Part shown: in pieces, positions 4,629 to 29,965 of the stretch
Layout of the letters: every line of letters starts with the position of its first letter
Position numbering within the stretch: position 1 is the first letter of the stretch
NCBI GenBank assembly: GCA_003166475.1
Contig: PMVV01000141.1
Coordinates: 1 to 33,552 of the forward strand
Length of the DNA: 33,552 nucleotides
Origin: Bryobacterales bacterium
GTDB taxonomy: Bacteria; Acidobacteriota; Terriglobia; Bryobacterales; Bryobacteraceae
Reading direction: 5' to 3'
Notes under the pieces: model-generated
What the model was told of the DNA's origin: nothing
The model's database searches: none
What the model saw: only the letters and a program-made list of their open reading frames with translations
Translations under genes and position numbers: made by a program

Positions 4629-4639
4629 TCCTAGCGCAG

Positions 4640-4671
4640 GCAGGCCACGAAAAACGATGGCCTGCCCCACA
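4640..4671. repeat. Palindromic repeat, long-loop type
   Basis: Arms GCAGGCCA (4640-4647) and TGGCCTGC (4658-4665) enclose the 10-base loop CGAAAAACGA and are followed by CCCACA. Related long-loop hairpins occur at 21146-21217 and 27893-27970. It lies between the VPS10 stop codon at 4673 and the VOC gene, so it may shape the 3' end of the VPS10 transcript. Confidence 0.7.
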
Positions 4672-21141: not shown

Positions 21142-21222
21142 GTGGGGCAGGCGATCGTTTTATGTCGCCTGCCAACGCTCCCCGCAGGCGGCAGACCACA
21201 AAGTGCGATGGTCTGCCCCACC
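21142..21222. repeat. Two long-loop palindromic repeats
   Basis: GTGGGGCA leads into stem GGCAGGCGA (21146-21154) and TCGCCTGCC (21165-21173), loop TCGTTTTATG. A second stem follows: GGCAGACCA (21190-21198) and TGGTCTGCC (21209-21217), then CCACC. Both loops are ten bases, as at 4640. The coding sequence of a DUF4160 gene begins abruptly at its right edge. The 21012-21140 stretch before it holds nothing recognisable. Confidence 0.8.
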
Positions 21223-21224
21223 AA

Positions 21225-21311
21225 GGGGTGGAAATCGGACGAATCGAAAGGCTGGTCGCGGAAAACGCGGACCTGTTGTTGAGGGCATGGCATGAGTGCT
21301 TCGGGGACTGA
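21225..21311 (+). pseudogene. DUF4160 gene, only the C-terminal end left
   Basis: The frame reads GVEIGRIERLVAENADLLLR then AWHECFGD and stops at 21311. This is the usual C-terminus of DUF4160 proteins (EI.RI..LV.EN...LL.AWHE.FGD), which are about 80-90 residues long. The first 50-60 residues are absent and the sequence before is the palindromic repeat ending at 21222. The end overlaps the DUF2442 start by 20 bp, the normal arrangement of this TA-like pair. So the presumed toxin partner is dead. Confidence 0.75.
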
Positions 21312-23411: not shown

Positions 23412-23417
23412 TATAAT
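23412..23417 (+). promoter_or_regulatory. -10 box TATAAT
   Basis: Consensus TATAAT, 20 bases before the ATG at 23438. A short leader of about 14 bases would result. The same CGTCGCTGTATAA string recurs in the relic at 21610-21623. Confidence 0.5.
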
Positions 23418-23437
23418 TGTGGACCAGCACTCATCAC

Positions 23438-25756
23438 ATGCATCTTTCCCGCACCATCTGCGCGGCAGCTTTGCTCGCATTGCCGTGTCTGGCTCAAGCG
23501 GTGGACTTCGCCGCCGAAGTGCATCCCATTCTGGCGGCGCGCTGCGCCCCCTGCCATAGCGGCGCAAAGCCCGCCGCGGGACTGTCGCTCATCAGCCGCG
23601 CGTTGATGCTCGCCGGCGGCGCAAGCGGCCCGGCGATTGTGCCTGGCGCGAGCGGCGCCAGCCTGCTGATCGAGAAGATCTCCGGACAGCGCGGCGCCAT
23701 CATGCCGGCTTCCGGCGAGCCGCTGGCGGCGGCCCAGATCGCCACTCTACGCGCCTGGATCGACGCGGGCGCGGCTTGGCCGGAGACTGCACCGATTCCT
23801 TCGGGCTGGGTCGCCCCCATTGCACCCAGCCAACCCAATTTGCCCGCAGGCGGCGAACCGCATCCCGTCGATCGTTTCATCGCGGCTTACTTCGCGAAAT
23901 ATGCGCTGGCCTTCCCCGCCGTAGCCCCCGATGCGCGATTTGTCCGGCGCGTCTATTTCGATTTGTGGGGATTGCCGCCCACGCCGGCGCAACTGGAAGC
24001 CTTCCTCAACGACCGCGACCCCGCCAAGCGGGCGCGCCTGATCGATGCGCTGCTCGGCGATTCCGAGCCCTACGCGGAACATTGGATCAGTTGGTGGAAC
24101 GACCTGCTGCGCAACGACCAGGGCGGCGAGTACGCGGGCGAGCGCAAGTCCATTACCGATTGGCTGCTCGGCGCGCTCCAACACAACCTGCCTTACGACA
24201 AGATGGTCGCCGCGCTGGTGAACCCGGTGGAGTCGAGCGACCCGAACGGCTTCCTGATCGGCGTCAACTGGCGCGGCGATATCAACGCCAGCCAGACCCC
24301 CTACATGCAAGCGGCCCAGAACACCGCGCAGATTTTCCTGGGGATCAATCTGAAGTGCGCCTCCTGTCACGACAGTTTCATCAACCGCTACAAGCTGCGC
24401 GAGTCGTATGGCATGGCGGCGCTGTTTGCGCCCCAGAGCCGGCTGGAGTTGGTGCGTTGCGACGTCAAGACGGGCGCCTACACGGGCCCGCAACTGCTCT
24501 ATCCCGAGTTAGGCATGGTGCCCGAGGATGCCCCGCTCGCCGATCGACACGCCGCCGCCGCGCGATTCTTCACCGATCCGCGCAACGGCCGCGTGGCGCG
24601 CACCATCGTCAATCGCTACTGGCAGAAACTGTTCGGGCGCGGGTTGGTGGAACCCGTCGACGAAATGGATGGCGAGCCCTGGAACGCGGACCTGCTCGAC
24701 TGGCTGGCGTCCGACTTCACGGCGCACGGCAGCGATCTGAAATACCTGCTGCGGCTGCTGATGAATTCGAAAGCGTATCAACTGCAGGCTGCCGTCAGCC
24801 CCGAGCAGCCCGAGAAGCCGTACGTGTTTCGCGGACCTCAGGTGCGGCGGCTCTCCGCCGAGGAGTTCGCCGATACCGTGTCGGCCATCACCGGCGAATG
24901 GCGTTTGGTCGAAAGAGACAAGGCGGCCATGCCGGCACGCGACTGGCAGTTCAAGGCGTCGCCACTCGCCCTGGCGTTGGGCCGGCCCATTCGCGACCAG
25001 GTCTTCACTACGCGCGATAATCGCCCGACCACGTTCCAGGCGCTGGAACTGGCCAACGGCGCGAGCCTGGAGAACATGCTACGGCGGGGCGCGCTGCGAT
25101 TGCTGGGTCAACTGCCGGCCGCATCGGAAAACCTGTTCGATAGCGGCAGGCTGCGCAAAGGCGCGGCCGATTTCGATATCGACATCTCCGGCCTGAAGCG
25201 GTTGTGGCTGCTGGAGCAGGATGCCGGCTCCTACGATCCCACGCGCACCGTGGCGGGCTGGATCCACGTGGAGTTTTTCGGTCCGCAAGGCGTGAAGGAT
25301 CTCGCCGATCTGGCGCCGGCCACCTTCGCGCGGCAGCGGGTGACCTCCAACAAGGAACCCGCCGGGGAGGCCGTTACCATGCCGCCGGGCACGCGCCTGG
25401 TGCTTCCGATTGACGGCCTCGGGTACGTACGGATGCGTGGCCGCGTGGCTCTCGACGACCGCTCCCTGCCCGACGATATCGAGGGCGCCGTGCGCTTCTT
25501 CATTTTCGGCGCGGAGCCCGATCCCGAGCGGCTGGTGCGCGTCTCGGGATCGCGGCCAGTGCCCGCGCCGCCGCCTTTGGCTAGCGTCGATGAGGCGGGA
25601 CGGCGGCTATATTTGCAACTTTTCGCGCGCGAGCCGAACTCCGAGGAGGCGCGCATCGTAAGGAACTATTTTGCGGGCGGTAAACTTGCGCCGGCGGCTT
25701 TGGAGGATCTTCTGTGGAGTTTATTGCTGCACCCCGAGTGTCAATACTTGTATTAG
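23438..25756 (+). CDS. Secreted planctomycete-type cytochrome c DUF1549/DUF1553 protein
   Basis: A 772-residue exported protein. Signal peptide about 1-21 (MHLSRTICAAALLALPCLAQ). A PSCyt1-type heme domain follows, with CAPCH at residues 36-40 and a distal MPASGEPL. Then DUF1549 (HPVDRFIAAYF, RRVYFDLWGLPPTPAQLEAF, NDLLRNDQGGEYAG, and a second CASCHDSF) and DUF1553 (FFTDPRNGRVARTIVNRYWQ, LFGRGLVEPVDEM, LLRLLMNSKAYQ, RRLSAEEFADTVSAITG), ending at LLHPECQYLY. The family is common in Planctomycetes and Acidobacteria. Members usually pair with a DUF1501 gene; here that gene is 2.8 kb downstream. The next gene overlaps by 43 bp. Role in periplasmic polysaccharide oxidation or degradation is suspected, not proven. 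Confidence 0.9.
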   Translation: MHLSRTICAAALLALPCLAQAVDFAAEVHPILAARCAPCHSGAKPAAGLSLISRALMLAGGASGPAIVPGASGASLLIEKISGQRGAIMPASGEPLAAAQIATLRAWIDAGAAWPETAPIPSGWVAPIAPSQPNLPAGGEPHPVDRFIAAYFAKYALAFPAVAPDARFVRRVYFDLWGLPPTPAQLEAFLNDRDPAKRARLIDALLGDSEPYAEHWISWWNDLLRNDQGGEYAGERKSITDWLLGALQHNLPYDKMVAALVNPVESSDPNGFLIGVNWRGDINASQTPYMQAAQNTAQIFLGINLKCASCHDSFINRYKLRESYGMAALFAPQSRLELVRCDVKTGAYTGPQLLYPELGMVPEDAPLADRHAAAARFFTDPRNGRVARTIVNRYWQKLFGRGLVEPVDEMDGEPWNADLLDWLASDFTAHGSDLKYLLRLLMNSKAYQLQAAVSPEQPEKPYVFRGPQVRRLSAEEFADTVSAITGEWRLVERDKAAMPARDWQFKASPLALALGRPIRDQVFTTRDNRPTTFQALELANGASLENMLRRGALRLLGQLPAASENLFDSGRLRKGAADFDIDISGLKRLWLLEQDAGSYDPTRTVAGWIHVEFFGPQGVKDLADLAPATFARQRVTSNKEPAGEAVTMPPGTRLVLPIDGLGYVRMRGRVALDDRSLPDDIEGAVRFFIFGAEPDPERLVRVSGSRPVPAPPPLASVDEAGRRLYLQLFAREPNSEEARIVRNYFAGGKLAPAALEDLLWSLLLHPECQYLY

Positions 25757-27522
25757 CGAGTTGCGCGGGGGCCTTTGCCCAAAATGGCGATACTGGCGAG
25801 GCGGTTTACCAGAAGCATTGCGCCCAGTGTCACGACAAAGGCGTAGGGCGCGCACCGCAACTACTGACGCTGAGCCTGTCCACTCCCGAGCGCGTCCTGG
25901 CCGCGCTGACCAATGGCAAGATGGCCGAACAGGGCAAGGCGTTGACCCCCGCGGAGGCGCGCGCCGTGGCCATGTTCGTCACTGGTGGCAAGTCCTTCGG
26001 CGCCGAAGAAGCCAAGCAGGGCGCATGCCCCGAGCCTGCGCCAGCTTTCGATAAGCCGTTCGCCGGCCCTTACTGGAACGGCTGGGGCGTGGATTCGGCG
26101 AACCGCCGCATGCAACCGGCGGCCATGGCGGGCCTGCGCGCGGACCAGGTACCGCTGTTGAAGCTGAAGTGGGCCTTCGGCTTCCCGGGAGTCGGCAAGG
26201 CAAACGCGCAGCCCACCGTGGTGGGAGGGCGCATCTTCGCCGGCAGCGACTCGGGCAAAGTCTATTCGCTGGACGCCGGCACCGGCTGCATCTACTGGAC
26301 TTTCAATGCCGGCCGGGCGGTGCGCAGCGCCATCGGCATCGGGCCGGTGGGCGCGAAGTGGGTGGCATATTTCGGCGATCAACACGCGCAAGCCTATGCG
26401 GTGGATGCCGCCACTGGCGCGCTGCTGTGGAAGGTACACGTGGACGAGCATCCCGCCGCTATGATCACCGGCGCTCCCGCGCTCTGGGATGGCCGGCTGT
26501 ATGTGCCAACCTCGTCGTACGAGGAAGTGACCGGCGCCGCGCCCAAATACGAGTGCTGCAAGTTTCGCGGCGCAGTCACCGCCCTGGATGCCGCCACCGG
26601 CAAGCAGATCTGGAAGAGCTACACCATTGCGGAGGCGCCCCAGCCGGTGCGCAAGAACAAGCAGGGCACGCAGCTTTGGGGGCCGTCGGGCGCGGGGGTG
26701 TGGTCGTCGCCCACTATCGATCCGAAGAAGCGCGCGGTTTATGTGACCACCGGCGATGCCTACTCGGATCCGCCCGCGCGCACCAGCGACTCATTTCTGG
26801 CATTCGACATGGACACCGGGAAGCTGCTTTGGTCGCGCCAGATGACTGCGGGCGACACTTACCTGGTTGGCTGCCCCAGCGGCGACAATTGCCCGGAGAC
26901 CACGGGTCCCGACTTCGATTTTGGCTGCTCGCCGAACCTGGTGGATCTGCCGAACGGCAAGCGTGCGCTGGTGGCCGGGCAGAAGTCCGGCATGGTGCAT
27001 GCGCTCGACCCGGACCAGCAGGGCGAAGTGTTGTGGAGCGTGCGCGTGGGCAAGGGCGGCCCGCTCGGAGGAGTGCAGTGGGGCAACGCATCGGATGGCC
27101 AGAATGTCTATGTGGCCGTCTCGGACCACTACGCCACAAAGAATGTCAAGGAAGGTGGCGGGATGTTCGCGCTGAAACTGGCAACGGGAGAGCGCGTGTG
27201 GTCTACGCCGCCGCCCGGATGTGGCATGCCGTATTGCAGCCCCGCGCAATCGGCGGCCGTGACGGCGATTCCGGGAGTAGTCTTCTCGGGCTCGGTGGAC
27301 GGCCACTTGCGCGCCTATGCGACTGCCGATGGGCGCATCGTCTGGGACGTGGATACCGCCGTGGAATATCAGTCCGTGAACGGGGTGAAGGCCAAGGGCG
27401 GCTCACTCGACGGTCCCGGGCCGACGGTGGTGGGCGGGACGTTGTACGTGAACTCGGGTTATGGGCAGTTCGGGGAGATGCCGGGGAATGTGCTGCTGGC
27501 GTTTTCGGTAGATGGGAAGTGA
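25714..27522 (+). CDS. Cytochrome c-PQQ-type beta-propeller dehydrogenase-like protein
   Basis: A 602-residue exported protein. Start is a GTG inside the previous gene, with GGAGG seven bases upstream. LASC at 14-17 fits a lipobox, so it may be a lipoprotein; otherwise cleavage follows Ala22. A cytochrome c domain has CAQCH at 36-40. An eight-bladed PQQ-type propeller then runs from LKLKWAFGFPG to YGQFGEMPGNVLLAFS, with blades such as GKVYSLDAGTGCIYWTF and GAVTALDAATGKQIWKS and paired cysteines (CPSGDNC, CGMPYC). Such proteins oxidise polyols or alcohols, passing electrons to the heme. Translational coupling with the DUF1549 cytochrome suggests one periplasmic redox pathway. Substrate and actual PQQ use are not provable from this. 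Confidence 0.87.
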   Translation: MEFIAAPRVSILVLASCAGAFAQNGDTGEAVYQKHCAQCHDKGVGRAPQLLTLSLSTPERVLAALTNGKMAEQGKALTPAEARAVAMFVTGGKSFGAEEAKQGACPEPAPAFDKPFAGPYWNGWGVDSANRRMQPAAMAGLRADQVPLLKLKWAFGFPGVGKANAQPTVVGGRIFAGSDSGKVYSLDAGTGCIYWTFNAGRAVRSAIGIGPVGAKWVAYFGDQHAQAYAVDAATGALLWKVHVDEHPAAMITGAPALWDGRLYVPTSSYEEVTGAAPKYECCKFRGAVTALDAATGKQIWKSYTIAEAPQPVRKNKQGTQLWGPSGAGVWSSPTIDPKKRAVYVTTGDAYSDPPARTSDSFLAFDMDTGKLLWSRQMTAGDTYLVGCPSGDNCPETTGPDFDFGCSPNLVDLPNGKRALVAGQKSGMVHALDPDQQGEVLWSVRVGKGGPLGGVQWGNASDGQNVYVAVSDHYATKNVKEGGGMFALKLATGERVWSTPPPGCGMPYCSPAQSAAVTAIPGVVFSGSVDGHLRAYATADGRIVWDVDTAVEYQSVNGVKAKGGSLDGPGPTVVGGTLYVNSGYGQFGEMPGNVLLAFSVDGK

Positions 27523-27576
27523 TCCTCGATTTACACCAGGAATGGAAAGCCGCGTAGTGGCTAGGAGCACGCACCC

Positions 27577-27843
27577 ATGAACGTCTCGCTTACCCCAGAA
27601 CTCGAACAGTTCGTCAGCGCCAAAGTTGAATCGGGCCGCTACAACTCTGCGAGCGAAGTCGTCCGCGAGGCCCTTCGCCTTCTGGAAGAAAACGACTCCG
27701 CCCGGGCCGAGCAACTGGCGCAATTCAACGGCGAACTCGGCCGCCGCCTAGCAGCCCTCGATCGGGGCGAAACTGTCGACCCGGCCGCGGCGCGCGCCAG
27801 GTTGCGGCGCAAGTCCGAGCAGCGCCGGAAGCCGCGCCCGTGA
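27577..27843 (+). CDS. parD: ParD-like RHH antitoxin, now without its toxin
   Basis: An 88-residue antitoxin of the ParD (CopG/Arc/MetJ) type. MNVSLTPELEQFVSAKVESG then RYNSASEVVREALRLLEEND is the classic RHH N-terminus, and the charged C-terminus (PAAARARLRRKSE) would wrap the toxin. It binds its own promoter and inhibits ParE. A weak AGGAG lies about 12 bases upstream. Its stop overlaps a GTG that begins ParE, but the toxin gene breaks off after about 17 codons. The antitoxin itself looks intact. Confidence 0.9.
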   Translation: MNVSLTPELEQFVSAKVESGRYNSASEVVREALRLLEENDSARAEQLAQFNGELGRRLAALDRGETVDPAAARARLRRKSEQRRKPRP

Positions 27844-27893
27844 GCGATTGCATTCTCGGTCCCGGTGCGGATCTCGACCTCAGCAGATTCGCT
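27840..27893 (+). pseudogene. ParE toxin stub, cut by palindromic repeat
   Basis: From a GTG overlapping the parD stop the frame reads VSDCILGPGADLDLSRF, matching the N-terminal strand and first helix of ParE/RelE toxins (xxLxPxADxDLxEI). At about 27893 it runs straight into GTGGGGCA, the start of the palindromic repeat. The remaining 75-80 residues of a normal ParE are absent. The open frame continues to 28040 only through repeat sequence. Confidence 0.75.
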
Positions 27894-27974
27894 GTGGGGC
27901 AACCCATCGTTTTTCGTGGCCTGCCGAGTTCGAGCACGGTGCGCAGACGACAAACAACGATCGTCTGCGCCACG
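27893..27974. repeat. Long-loop palindromic repeat
   Basis: A degenerate first unit (GTGGGGCA, then ATCGTTTTTCGTGGCCTGCC) is related to 4640 and 21146. A perfect second stem follows: GCGCAGACGA (27941-27950), loop CAAACAACGA, TCGTCTGCGC (27961-27970), then CAC. It replaces the body of the parE gene. Confidence 0.78.
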
Positions 27975-27999
27975 CCGGGCACCGGAACTGTACAGTTAA

Positions 28000-28036
28000 T
28001 TTGCGGACACTACACTAGTATCCGCAAACAGCGGAT
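28000..28036. repeat. Nested inverted repeats before hicB
   Basis: TTTGCGGA (28000-28007) pairs with TCCGCAAA (28021-28028) over a 13-base spacer. The second arm can also pair with the following sequence: ATCCGC (28020-28025), AAACA, GCGGAT (28031-28036). The two hairpins exclude each other. It lies 66 bases before the hicB start. Role unknown; operator, terminator or attenuator are possible. Confidence 0.55.
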
Positions 28037-28101
28037 TTGACGGCTTCGTCCTATCGCGCGTACACTGAAAGCGGTATCGAACACCATCCTTAGTAACACG
28101 C

Positions 28102-28377
28102 ATGAAGATCTACAACTTCAAGGTGATCCTGGAACCCGACGAGGATTTCGACGGAAATCCGTCGGGCTGGCATGTCTACTGTCCTGCACTCAAAAAGCTG
28201 GGCGGCTCGACGTGGGGCGAGACTTGCGAGGAAGCACTCAAGAACATCAGCGAGGTCGTTCACATGATCGTGCAGGAATTCAAGGAGGAAGGGAAGCCAT
28301 TGCCCGAAGGCCCGGGCGACTGGGTGGAGGTTGAGGAGATTTCCCGGGAGCGACCCCATATCGCGGTCACGGTTTAG
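28102..28377 (+). CDS. hicB: HicB-like antitoxin, now without its toxin
   Basis: A 91-residue protein of the HicB N-terminal type. MKIYNFKVILEPDEDFDGNP then GWHVYCPALKKLGGSTWGET and EEALKNISEVVHMIVQEF form the partial RNase-H-like fold of HicB. It has no C-terminal DNA-binding domain, as in the short HicB class. It would neutralise HicA, the dsRBD-like mRNA interferase encoded next. hicA begins five bases after the hicB stop but is cut after 27 codons. No SD before the ATG; a TACACT sits at 28060-28065. Confidence 0.87.
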   Translation: MKIYNFKVILEPDEDFDGNPSGWHVYCPALKKLGGSTWGETCEEALKNISEVVHMIVQEFKEEGKPLPEGPGDWVEVEEISRERPHIAVTV

Positions 28378-28382
28378 AGATC

Positions 28383-28463
28383 ATGGCCATCGACTACCGG
28401 GGTCTGCGGTCGCTCAGCGCGCGGGAACTTATCGCAGCCCTCACGCGCGACGGATTCGGTAGT
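28383..28463 (+). pseudogene. HicA toxin stub, cut by double-hairpin repeat
   Basis: The frame reads MAIDYRGLRSLSARELIAAL then TRDGF, the first helix of a HicA toxin (SARELIAAL.RDGF). Normally an FxLxRQRGSH stretch with the catalytic His follows. Instead, from about 28461 the sequence becomes the hairpin repeat. The catalytic His and about 60 residues are missing. The frame stays open to 28532 only through repeat sequence. Confidence 0.78.
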
Positions 28464-28515
28464 GGGGGCTGCAAGCCGCCTGAAAGGCGGCTGCGGGCAA
28501 GATTGCCCGCCCCAC
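28464..28515. repeat. Double-hairpin repeat with GCCCCAC tail
   Basis: AGCCGCCT, GAA, AGGCGGCT (28474-28492), then GCGGGCAA, GA, TTGCCCGC (28493-28510), then CCCAC. It fuses to the truncated hicA at its left and lies 10 bases before the -10 box of the DUF1501 gene at its right. Confidence 0.85.
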
Positions 28516-28524
28516 AGGAAGTAG

Positions 28525-28530
28525 TAACAT
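28525..28530 (+). promoter_or_regulatory. -10 box TAACAT, leaderless type
   Basis: TAACAT ends seven bases before the ATG at 28538. No SD. Confidence 0.4.
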
Positions 28531-28537
28531 AGATCCC

Positions 28538-29965
28538 ATGAACGGCGCGATTTTAACCGGTTTTTCCCGCCGCGGCTTTCTGCGCGCCTCGGGCGCGGCC
28601 GCCCTCGCCGCGCTGGCGGGTTCCGAGGCGCGCCTGCTGGCCAGCGCCACGAAAATTGCGCCGCGGGCCGACAGCCTCATCCTGCTCTGGATGGCCGGGG
28701 GCATGGCTCAAACCGAGACCTTCGACCCGAAGCAGTACACGCCGTTCGAACCGGGCATGGAGTCGAAGCGCGTGCTGAGCACCTTTCCCGCGATCGACAC
28801 CGCGGTCGATCACATCAAGATCTCCGCGGGCCTGGAGCGCATCTCCAAGATCATGGACCGCGGCACGTTGATCCGCTCCCACCGCGTCGGCGATTTGGGA
28901 TTCATTCTGCATGCGCGCCACCAGTTTCATTGGCACACCGGATATGCGCCTCCGCAGTCGGTGGCGGCGCCGCACATGGGCGCGGTCATATCGCGCACGC
29001 TCGGGGCGCGCAATCCGGAGATTCCGGCGTTCATCGACATCGGCCAGAATCTGGAAATCGGCGGCGAGAGCGACGCGGTGAAGGCCTTCCATACCGCCGG
29101 CTTTCTGGGCAGCGAACATGCGCCTTTCCTGATCGCCGATCCCCGCGATGCGGTGTCGCGCGTGCGGCCTTCCGAGCACATCGGCCCGGCCCGCTTCTTG
29201 AGCCGCTACGAGGAATACAAGAGACTGGTAGCCGCCAGTCCGGTGGGCCAATATGGCAGCGACTTCCAACGCCAGAGCCTGCTGCGGTCGCTCGACAACG
29301 CGCACCGCCTGTTGAGTTCGCCCGCCGCAAAAGCCTTCGACCTGAGCCTGGAGCCCAAGGCCACTTACGATGTTTACAACACCGGACGGTTCGGGCTGGG
29401 CTGCCTGCTGGCGCGCCGCCTGATGGAGTCCGGCGCGCGCTTCATCGAGGTGACCACGGAATACATCCCCTTCCGTTACTGGGACACTCACGAAAACGGG
29501 CACAAGCGCGCCATCGGCATGAAGGAAACGATAGACGCGCCGGTCGCGCAGTTGATTCTCGACCTGGAAGAGCGCGGATTGCTGGACCGCACCCTGGTGG
29601 TGCTGGCCAGCGAATTCGGCCGCGACATGATGACCGAGGGCAAACCCGGCGCGGAAGTGAAGGCGCAAGTGAAGCAGCCGGATATCATGACCGAGCCGCA
29701 GCACTACGGCATGCACCGGCATTTCACGGAAGCCTGCTCGGTGCTGATGTTCGGCGGCGGCACGCCCAAGGGCAAGCTGTACGGACGGACCGCGGACGAA
29801 CGCCCGTGCCGCATCGTCGAGAATCCGGTGACCATCGAGGATCTGCACGCCACCATCTACGCCGCGCTGGGCATCGCGCCGGACACCGCGTACGAGGTCG
29901 AGAAGCGCCCCTTCTACGTCACCAAGGATGGCAAGGGGAAGGCCGTCGCGGCGTTGGGGGCGTGA
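28538..29965 (+). CDS. DUF1501 Tat-exported sulfatase/phosphatase-like protein
   Basis: A 475-residue protein. SRRGFLR at residues 10-16 is a twin-arginine signal, followed by a hydrophobic stretch rich in Ala. The DUF1501 domain shows DSLILLWMAGGMAQTETFDP, RGTLIRSHRVGD, HWHTGYAPPQ, GRFGLGCLLARRLMESG, RYWDTHENGHKR, VVLASEFGRD and HYGMHRHFTEACSVLMFGGG. The fold belongs to the alkaline-phosphatase/sulfatase superfamily. Members usually follow DUF1549/DUF1553 genes and are thought to act in the periplasm. Here the ParD/ParE and HicB/HicA remnants separate them. A role in processing sulfated polymers is guessed from context. Confidence 0.9.
   Translation: MNGAILTGFSRRGFLRASGAAALAALAGSEARLLASATKIAPRADSLILLWMAGGMAQTETFDPKQYTPFEPGMESKRVLSTFPAIDTAVDHIKISAGLERISKIMDRGTLIRSHRVGDLGFILHARHQFHWHTGYAPPQSVAAPHMGAVISRTLGARNPEIPAFIDIGQNLEIGGESDAVKAFHTAGFLGSEHAPFLIADPRDAVSRVRPSEHIGPARFLSRYEEYKRLVAASPVGQYGSDFQRQSLLRSLDNAHRLLSSPAAKAFDLSLEPKATYDVYNTGRFGLGCLLARRLMESGARFIEVTTEYIPFRYWDTHENGHKRAIGMKETIDAPVAQLILDLEERGLLDRTLVVLASEFGRDMMTEGKPGAEVKAQVKQPDIMTEPQHYGMHRHFTEACSVLMFGGGTPKGKLYGRTADERPCRIVENPVTIEDLHATIYAALGIAPDTAYEVEKRPFYVTKDGKGKAVAALGA

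Follow-up and report, generated by a model that had tools for sequence, protein, structure and literature searches.

Solitary hicB genes are mentioned in parts of PMC10865869, where class 1 HicB proteins are described as lacking a DNA-binding domain. REP elements that lie near, overlap, or sit inside genes are the subject of passages in PMC3733652. Section 13 of PMC6006769 treats double-foot REPs, which carry a GT[AG]G foot together with its complement; inverted dimers that lose their central part are named there as a possible source. In a limited search of open-licence PMC papers, nothing that joins RAYT/REPIN systems with hicA truncation was found, and little was returned on REP/RAYT systems in Bryobacteraceae.

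Both REPs in genes and solitary hicB genes are hence already described, and the locus presented here is a further example of these known kinds. Its HicB appears without a working HicA, as solitary hicB genes do, and has no recognisable DNA-binding domain, in which it resembles the class 1 HicB proteins in the relevant parts of PMC10865869. Unlike the solitary hicB genes mentioned there, it keeps a clear hicA stub, and the breakpoint is exact. As with the REPs covered in passages of PMC3733652, the repeats reach into or sit in coding sequence, where they can contribute to an open frame. In those passages the genes are interrupted by the repeat, whereas hicA has lost its downstream portion altogether.

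The locus lies in a window, meaning the whole stretch of DNA analysed, of 33,552 nucleotides (C227:1-33552). The assembly (G000) is a draft MAG of 7.56 Mb in 497 contigs, 95.7% complete and with 5.1% contamination; the junction between hicA and the repeat is located well inside a contig of 41.5 kb.

Architecture of the truncated hicBA locus

The locus comprises the following features.

28037..28066, forward strand: probable hicB promoter (TTGACG, 18 nt, TACACT)
28102..28377, forward strand: hicB antitoxin gene, an intact ORF of 91 aa, no C-terminal DNA-binding domain recognised
28383..28457, forward strand: hicA remnant, 25 codons covering the first helix region
28383..28532, forward strand: fused open frame of 49 aa, running from the hicA remnant across the repeat
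28462..28515, no strand assigned: REP-like double hairpin of the compact B subtype, 54 bases with inverted ends GTGGGG...CCCCAC

The hicB frame is open and of full length, as claimed in the original prediction. Its product matches PF15919 (HicB_lk_antitox) weakly in Pfam, with an E value of 5e-4 that lies under the curated cut-off, and it is homologous to hicB genes that have an intact hicA next in line, e.g., L025 and L006. Identity to its eight best matches is 58 to 69%, the upper value being found with L004, L005, and L025, and close homologues occur in Bryobacterales, Bryobacteraceae, and Terriglobia genomes. The first half of HicB looks closer to L021/L027 and the second half closer to L025; HicB (28102-28377) may thus be a mosaic, judging from these comparisons. 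In hicBA modules, HicB can autoregulate via a DNA-binding domain, which class 1 HicB proteins lack. No such domain was matched in the present HicB by the Pfam scan; hence, an experiment to show that it binds the hicB promoter would probably fail. The probable promoter is the sole sigma-70-like match between 27500 and 28700, and upstream DNA homology starts (blastn) at 28061 in comparison with L025 and at 28057 in comparison with L026.

The hicA gene is reduced to about 25 residues, again as predicted. Residues 1 to 25 share 84% identity with the intact HicA of L025 (tblastn, E 1e-9), and nothing matches past residue 25. When the window is aligned by blastn with five hicBA loci, the alignments end at 28456 (L025, L005, and L026) or 28457 (L006 and L002), meaning that homology to the hicBA loci of relatives stops sharply after codon 25. 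About the last 58 codons, or the last two-thirds of the gene, are lost. This missing 3' part is absent from the window (best tblastn E 0.06) and from the genome, where HicA matches strongly at no place other than the remnant itself and two paralogous loci; a hicA tail nearby or elsewhere was thereby ruled out. HicA activity depends on a catalytic histidine. The predicted loss of this residue agrees with the absence of its region. With residues 1 to 25 as all that is left of HicA, the toxin would be dead, having lost its catalytic-histidine region.

The claim that hicA runs into hairpins ending in GCCCCAC stands. Four bases (28458-28461) lie between the end of hicA and the GTGGGG of the repeat. 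A fixed point would come to lie no more than 5 nt from the end of an element with a chance of about 0.8% at the density of the window, or 0.13% if only the 444 pattern-matched copies are counted. With these values, a REP positioned exactly at the joint is unlikely to be a coincidence. The fused frame ends at a TAG (28530-28532), and neither its 49-aa product nor the 25-codon stub has a Pfam match.

The 25 codons of hicA are conserved at the protein level. In comparison with L005, L025, and L026, their pN is 0.02 to 0.07 at a pS of 0.58 to 0.62; with the more distant L002 and L006, pN is 0.15 to 0.18 and pS 0.50 to 0.51. HicB, with a pN of 0.17 to 0.21 in comparison with L005, L025, and L026, is more diverged than the remnant. 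Since the remnant is still conserved, the cut appears to be recent relative to the divergence, and these substitution values indicate that the start of the toxin was under selection for most of it.

The REP-like element and its family

The element at 28462-28515 consists of two hairpins, with loops of 3 and 4 bases, within an outer stem, and its terminal GCCCCAC ends at 28515. It folds strongly as DNA (z = -4.1), and the RNA fold of 28450-28545 has z = -3.1. A pattern built from the second hairpin and the end has 444 matches in G000 and 0 in a reversed control; 42 of the 91 genomes have at least one match, G000 having the most. The element itself has 43 other genome matches among the matches listed. 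Of the first-look repeat candidates, 40 of 296 were scored. Given a family of hundreds of copies, a chance hairpin was ruled out, as was a known Rfam RNA, there being zero Rfam matches in the window. No target-site duplication was seen at the element, and the scan for terminator-like sites gave no hit there. The original prediction placed a promoter directly 3' of the repeat, which did not hold up: within 27500-28700, only the hicB promoter was detected.

Three subtypes were distinguished by eye, namely A (GAG loops, most copies), B (including the hicA copy), and C (long loops; copies in the window at 4639-4670, 21142-21221, and 27894-27975). Among 39 stretches of the B subtype, also judged by eye, about 10 form a full inverted dimer and 5 have a compact left end like that of the hicA copy. 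Many B-subtype copies end in CTCCA rather than CCAC. The compact B form fits the central deletion of an inverted dimer outlined in section 13 of PMC6006769.

The family is very probably REP-like. It consists of short palindromes at high copy number in one genome, and the hicA element begins with GTGG and ends with CCAC, i.e., a GT[AG]G foot and its complement. Herein it resembles the REP/REPIN (BIME)-RAYT (TnpA-REP) systems and especially their double-foot REPs, which are short hairpins with a GT[AG]G-type foot and the complement on the opposite side. Many copies, inverted dimers, compact forms, and a RAYT-type gene between inverted copies are further shared traits. Unlike in REP/REPIN systems, each half here carries two hairpins, and the ends are GTGGGG or TGGAGGG instead of just a tetranucleotide.

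Four Y1_Tnp matches are present in G000 (L059, L060, L061, and L062). The RAYT-type gene of L059 (1402-2052) is an open frame located between inverted A-subtype elements; it contains NHVH and YIEYNP, which we take to be the HUH and tyrosine motifs. The RAYT-type gene of L061 (1472-2033) also lies between inverted repeats and is cut at one of them. At both loci the repeats have the inverted form GTGGGGC...GCCCCAC, and at L060 and L062 no flanking elements were found by the patterns used. The family is probably moved by the RAYT-type Y1 transposases of the genome. Across the four Y1_Tnp loci, A was the one subtype seen paired with a RAYT gene, and no such pairing involved B-subtype elements; the element at hicA belongs to the B subtype, a further difference from REP/REPIN systems.

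Other possibly broken toxin genes in the window

Two further features lie just upstream of hicB.

27577..27843, forward strand: parD antitoxin gene (PF03693, E 6.5e-11)
27894..27975, no strand assigned: C-subtype long-loop repeat dimer, located 3' of a possible parE start and compared with 21142-21221

Behind parD, about 17 codons that may be the start of parE run into the C-subtype dimer (27840-27975); the DNA comparison of this start, at 27840, with other parD loci is too short to prove it as parE. At 21142-21311, a C-subtype dimer (21142-21221) is followed by just the last 27 or so codons of a DUF4160-like gene, beginning at about 21231. The DUF4160-like piece matches L073 (tblastn E 0.004) and L075 (E 0.045), and the first part of the gene was not seen upstream of the dimer. 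The original assignment of the hicA repeat to the short-loop kind, and of the parE and DUF4160 pieces to long-loop hairpins, was confirmed, and more than one subtype is indeed found at broken toxin genes.

The junction as the edge of a block

The B repeat forms the right edge of a larger block, a point that the original prediction overlooked.

25757..28537, forward strand: block of 2.78 kb, from the end of a DUF1553-type gene (25756) to DUF1501
28538..29965, forward strand: DUF1501 gene (PF07394, E 3e-72)

The gene at 23417-25756 is presumably of the DUF1553 type. The block contains, in order, a PQQ/cytochrome gene (PQQ dehydrogenase, the listed start of which overlaps the DUF1553-type gene), parD, the possible parE piece, the C repeat, hicB, the hicA stub, and the B repeat. 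Between the end of the B repeat and the DUF1501 ATG there are 22 nt. Of 29 DUF1501 loci examined, one has no upstream flank and was left out; in all 28 relatives with a readable upstream flank, a DUF1553-type homologue is located 8 to 209 nt upstream of DUF1501. The truncation of hicA hence coincides with what, by this comparison of gene order, is a rearrangement junction at the right end of the block. No homologues of parD, hicB, the DUF1553-type gene, or DUF1501 were found in the available flanks of 29 PQQ homologue loci; the block is thus not conserved as a unit. There is no REP at its left end. None of the relatives compared has an empty site or an unbroken cassette at the same place that would reveal the order of events.

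Toxin decay in relatives

For comparison, 28 hicB loci were fetched; the copy of the window itself and L028, which is the same place as L020, were dropped, leaving 26. At these 26 other distinct loci, hicA was judged by eye to have a full frame in 16 and to be damaged or absent in 10. A hicA that is naturally as short as the remnant was ruled out by the 16 full-length frames. The damage comprises frameshifts (L002, L003, L005, L015, and L016), deletions (L004, internal, and L026), and an altered end (L010); at L020 and L023, hicA was not found. Some of the frameshifts could be assembly errors. Both hicB paralogues of G000 (L002 and L003) are without an intact hicA, and the damaged loci mostly lack a REP of the window type. 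At the parD loci, an open ParE frame is present in 3 of 8, the window included, as judged by eye. Toxin decay is thus common at these loci and mostly proceeds without need of a window-type repeat. Because the hicA and parE counts take the antitoxin as their starting point, they are no measure of whether toxins decay more often than antitoxins.

Several of the decayed loci have features of their own. L020/L028 (G064) has no hicA at all, and about 11 bases past the hicB stop there begins a palindrome, CCGCTCCC...GGGAGCGG, that is unrelated to the window repeat. At L026, HicB is open and hicA has lost in frame a stretch with conserved Ser-His residues; from this loss, the toxin looks dead. In L002 and L005, which belong to different genera, a single base is missing near codon 59 of hicA, at both loci within an AAAACCC-like stretch in the same position, and this puts the last part out of frame; the cause may be decay at the run, assembly error, or something else.

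Origin of the truncated locus

The locus is probably the product of a recent and ordinary toxin loss at a REP-marked breakpoint that left a solitary antitoxin behind. A REP would have landed in or beside hicA, probably by means of the RAYT-type Y1 transposases. A deletion or recombination ending at this REP, e.g., with another REP copy ahead of DUF1501, would then have removed the tail of hicA. As an outcome, the cassette would have been joined to DUF1501, with the toxin dead and a harmless solitary HicB remaining. The absence of hicA in G064, with its unrelated palindrome just after the hicB stop, is counted for this explanation.

Compatible with toxin loss at the REP is a second idea, which we entertain tentatively, namely that DUF1501 was rewired and that the operon swap keeps hicB and the junction in place. 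Since the frame of the stub stays open across the repeat and the hicB promoter is the sole one predicted, DUF1501 may be read from this promoter by transcripts that cross the repeat. DUF1501 has lost its usual upstream neighbour, the TAG of the fused frame lies 5 nt ahead of its ATG, and no terminator-like site that would end transcription was detected in the repeat. On the other hand, hairpins as strong as these could just as well keep transcripts from passing.

It is rather unlikely that a REP simply inserted into an already dying hicA, the 3' part of which was lost later by unrelated small deletions with no involvement of the repeat. REPs inside genes are described in passages of PMC3733652, and hicA is broken without a window-type repeat at many of the loci above, through the five frameshifts and the internal deletion of L004. 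Such a course would sit poorly with the far side of the repeat, where there is no trace of the hicA 3' part and where the immediate 5' region of DUF1501 begins, 22 nt from the ATG.

A broader reading, in which deletions in Bryobacteraceae would end again and again at REP-like elements and would preferentially take apart toxin genes beside antitoxins, is very doubtful. Its basis is that hicA, probably parE, and DUF4160 all abut such elements within one 33-kb window. Targeting of toxins by the repeat is not indicated: in the genome and its relatives, hicA and parE are frequently broken where it is absent, and the RAYT gene of L061 is also cut at such an element. If this reading were true, the host would have a way of disarming TA cassettes that come in, with the antitoxin kept as an antidote. 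That HicB acts with a functional peptide of 25 or 49 residues, or that the repeat-coded tail was adopted, is scarcely credible in spite of the open frame through the repeat and the conserved 25 codons, as such conservation is expected anyway if the cut is recent, none of the 26 other hicB loci was seen to end after codon 25, and the 49-aa product, with its repeat-encoded tail, has no Pfam match and lacks the catalytic-histidine region.

Taken as a single case, toxin loss at the REP amounts to ordinary gene decay with an unusually clean breakpoint. It offers a clean example of what appears to be the recent loss of a toxin tail at a REP-marked junction with the antitoxin intact. If the pattern held over many REPs, a repeat system of domesticated transposases would be tied to the turnover of toxin–antitoxin genes.
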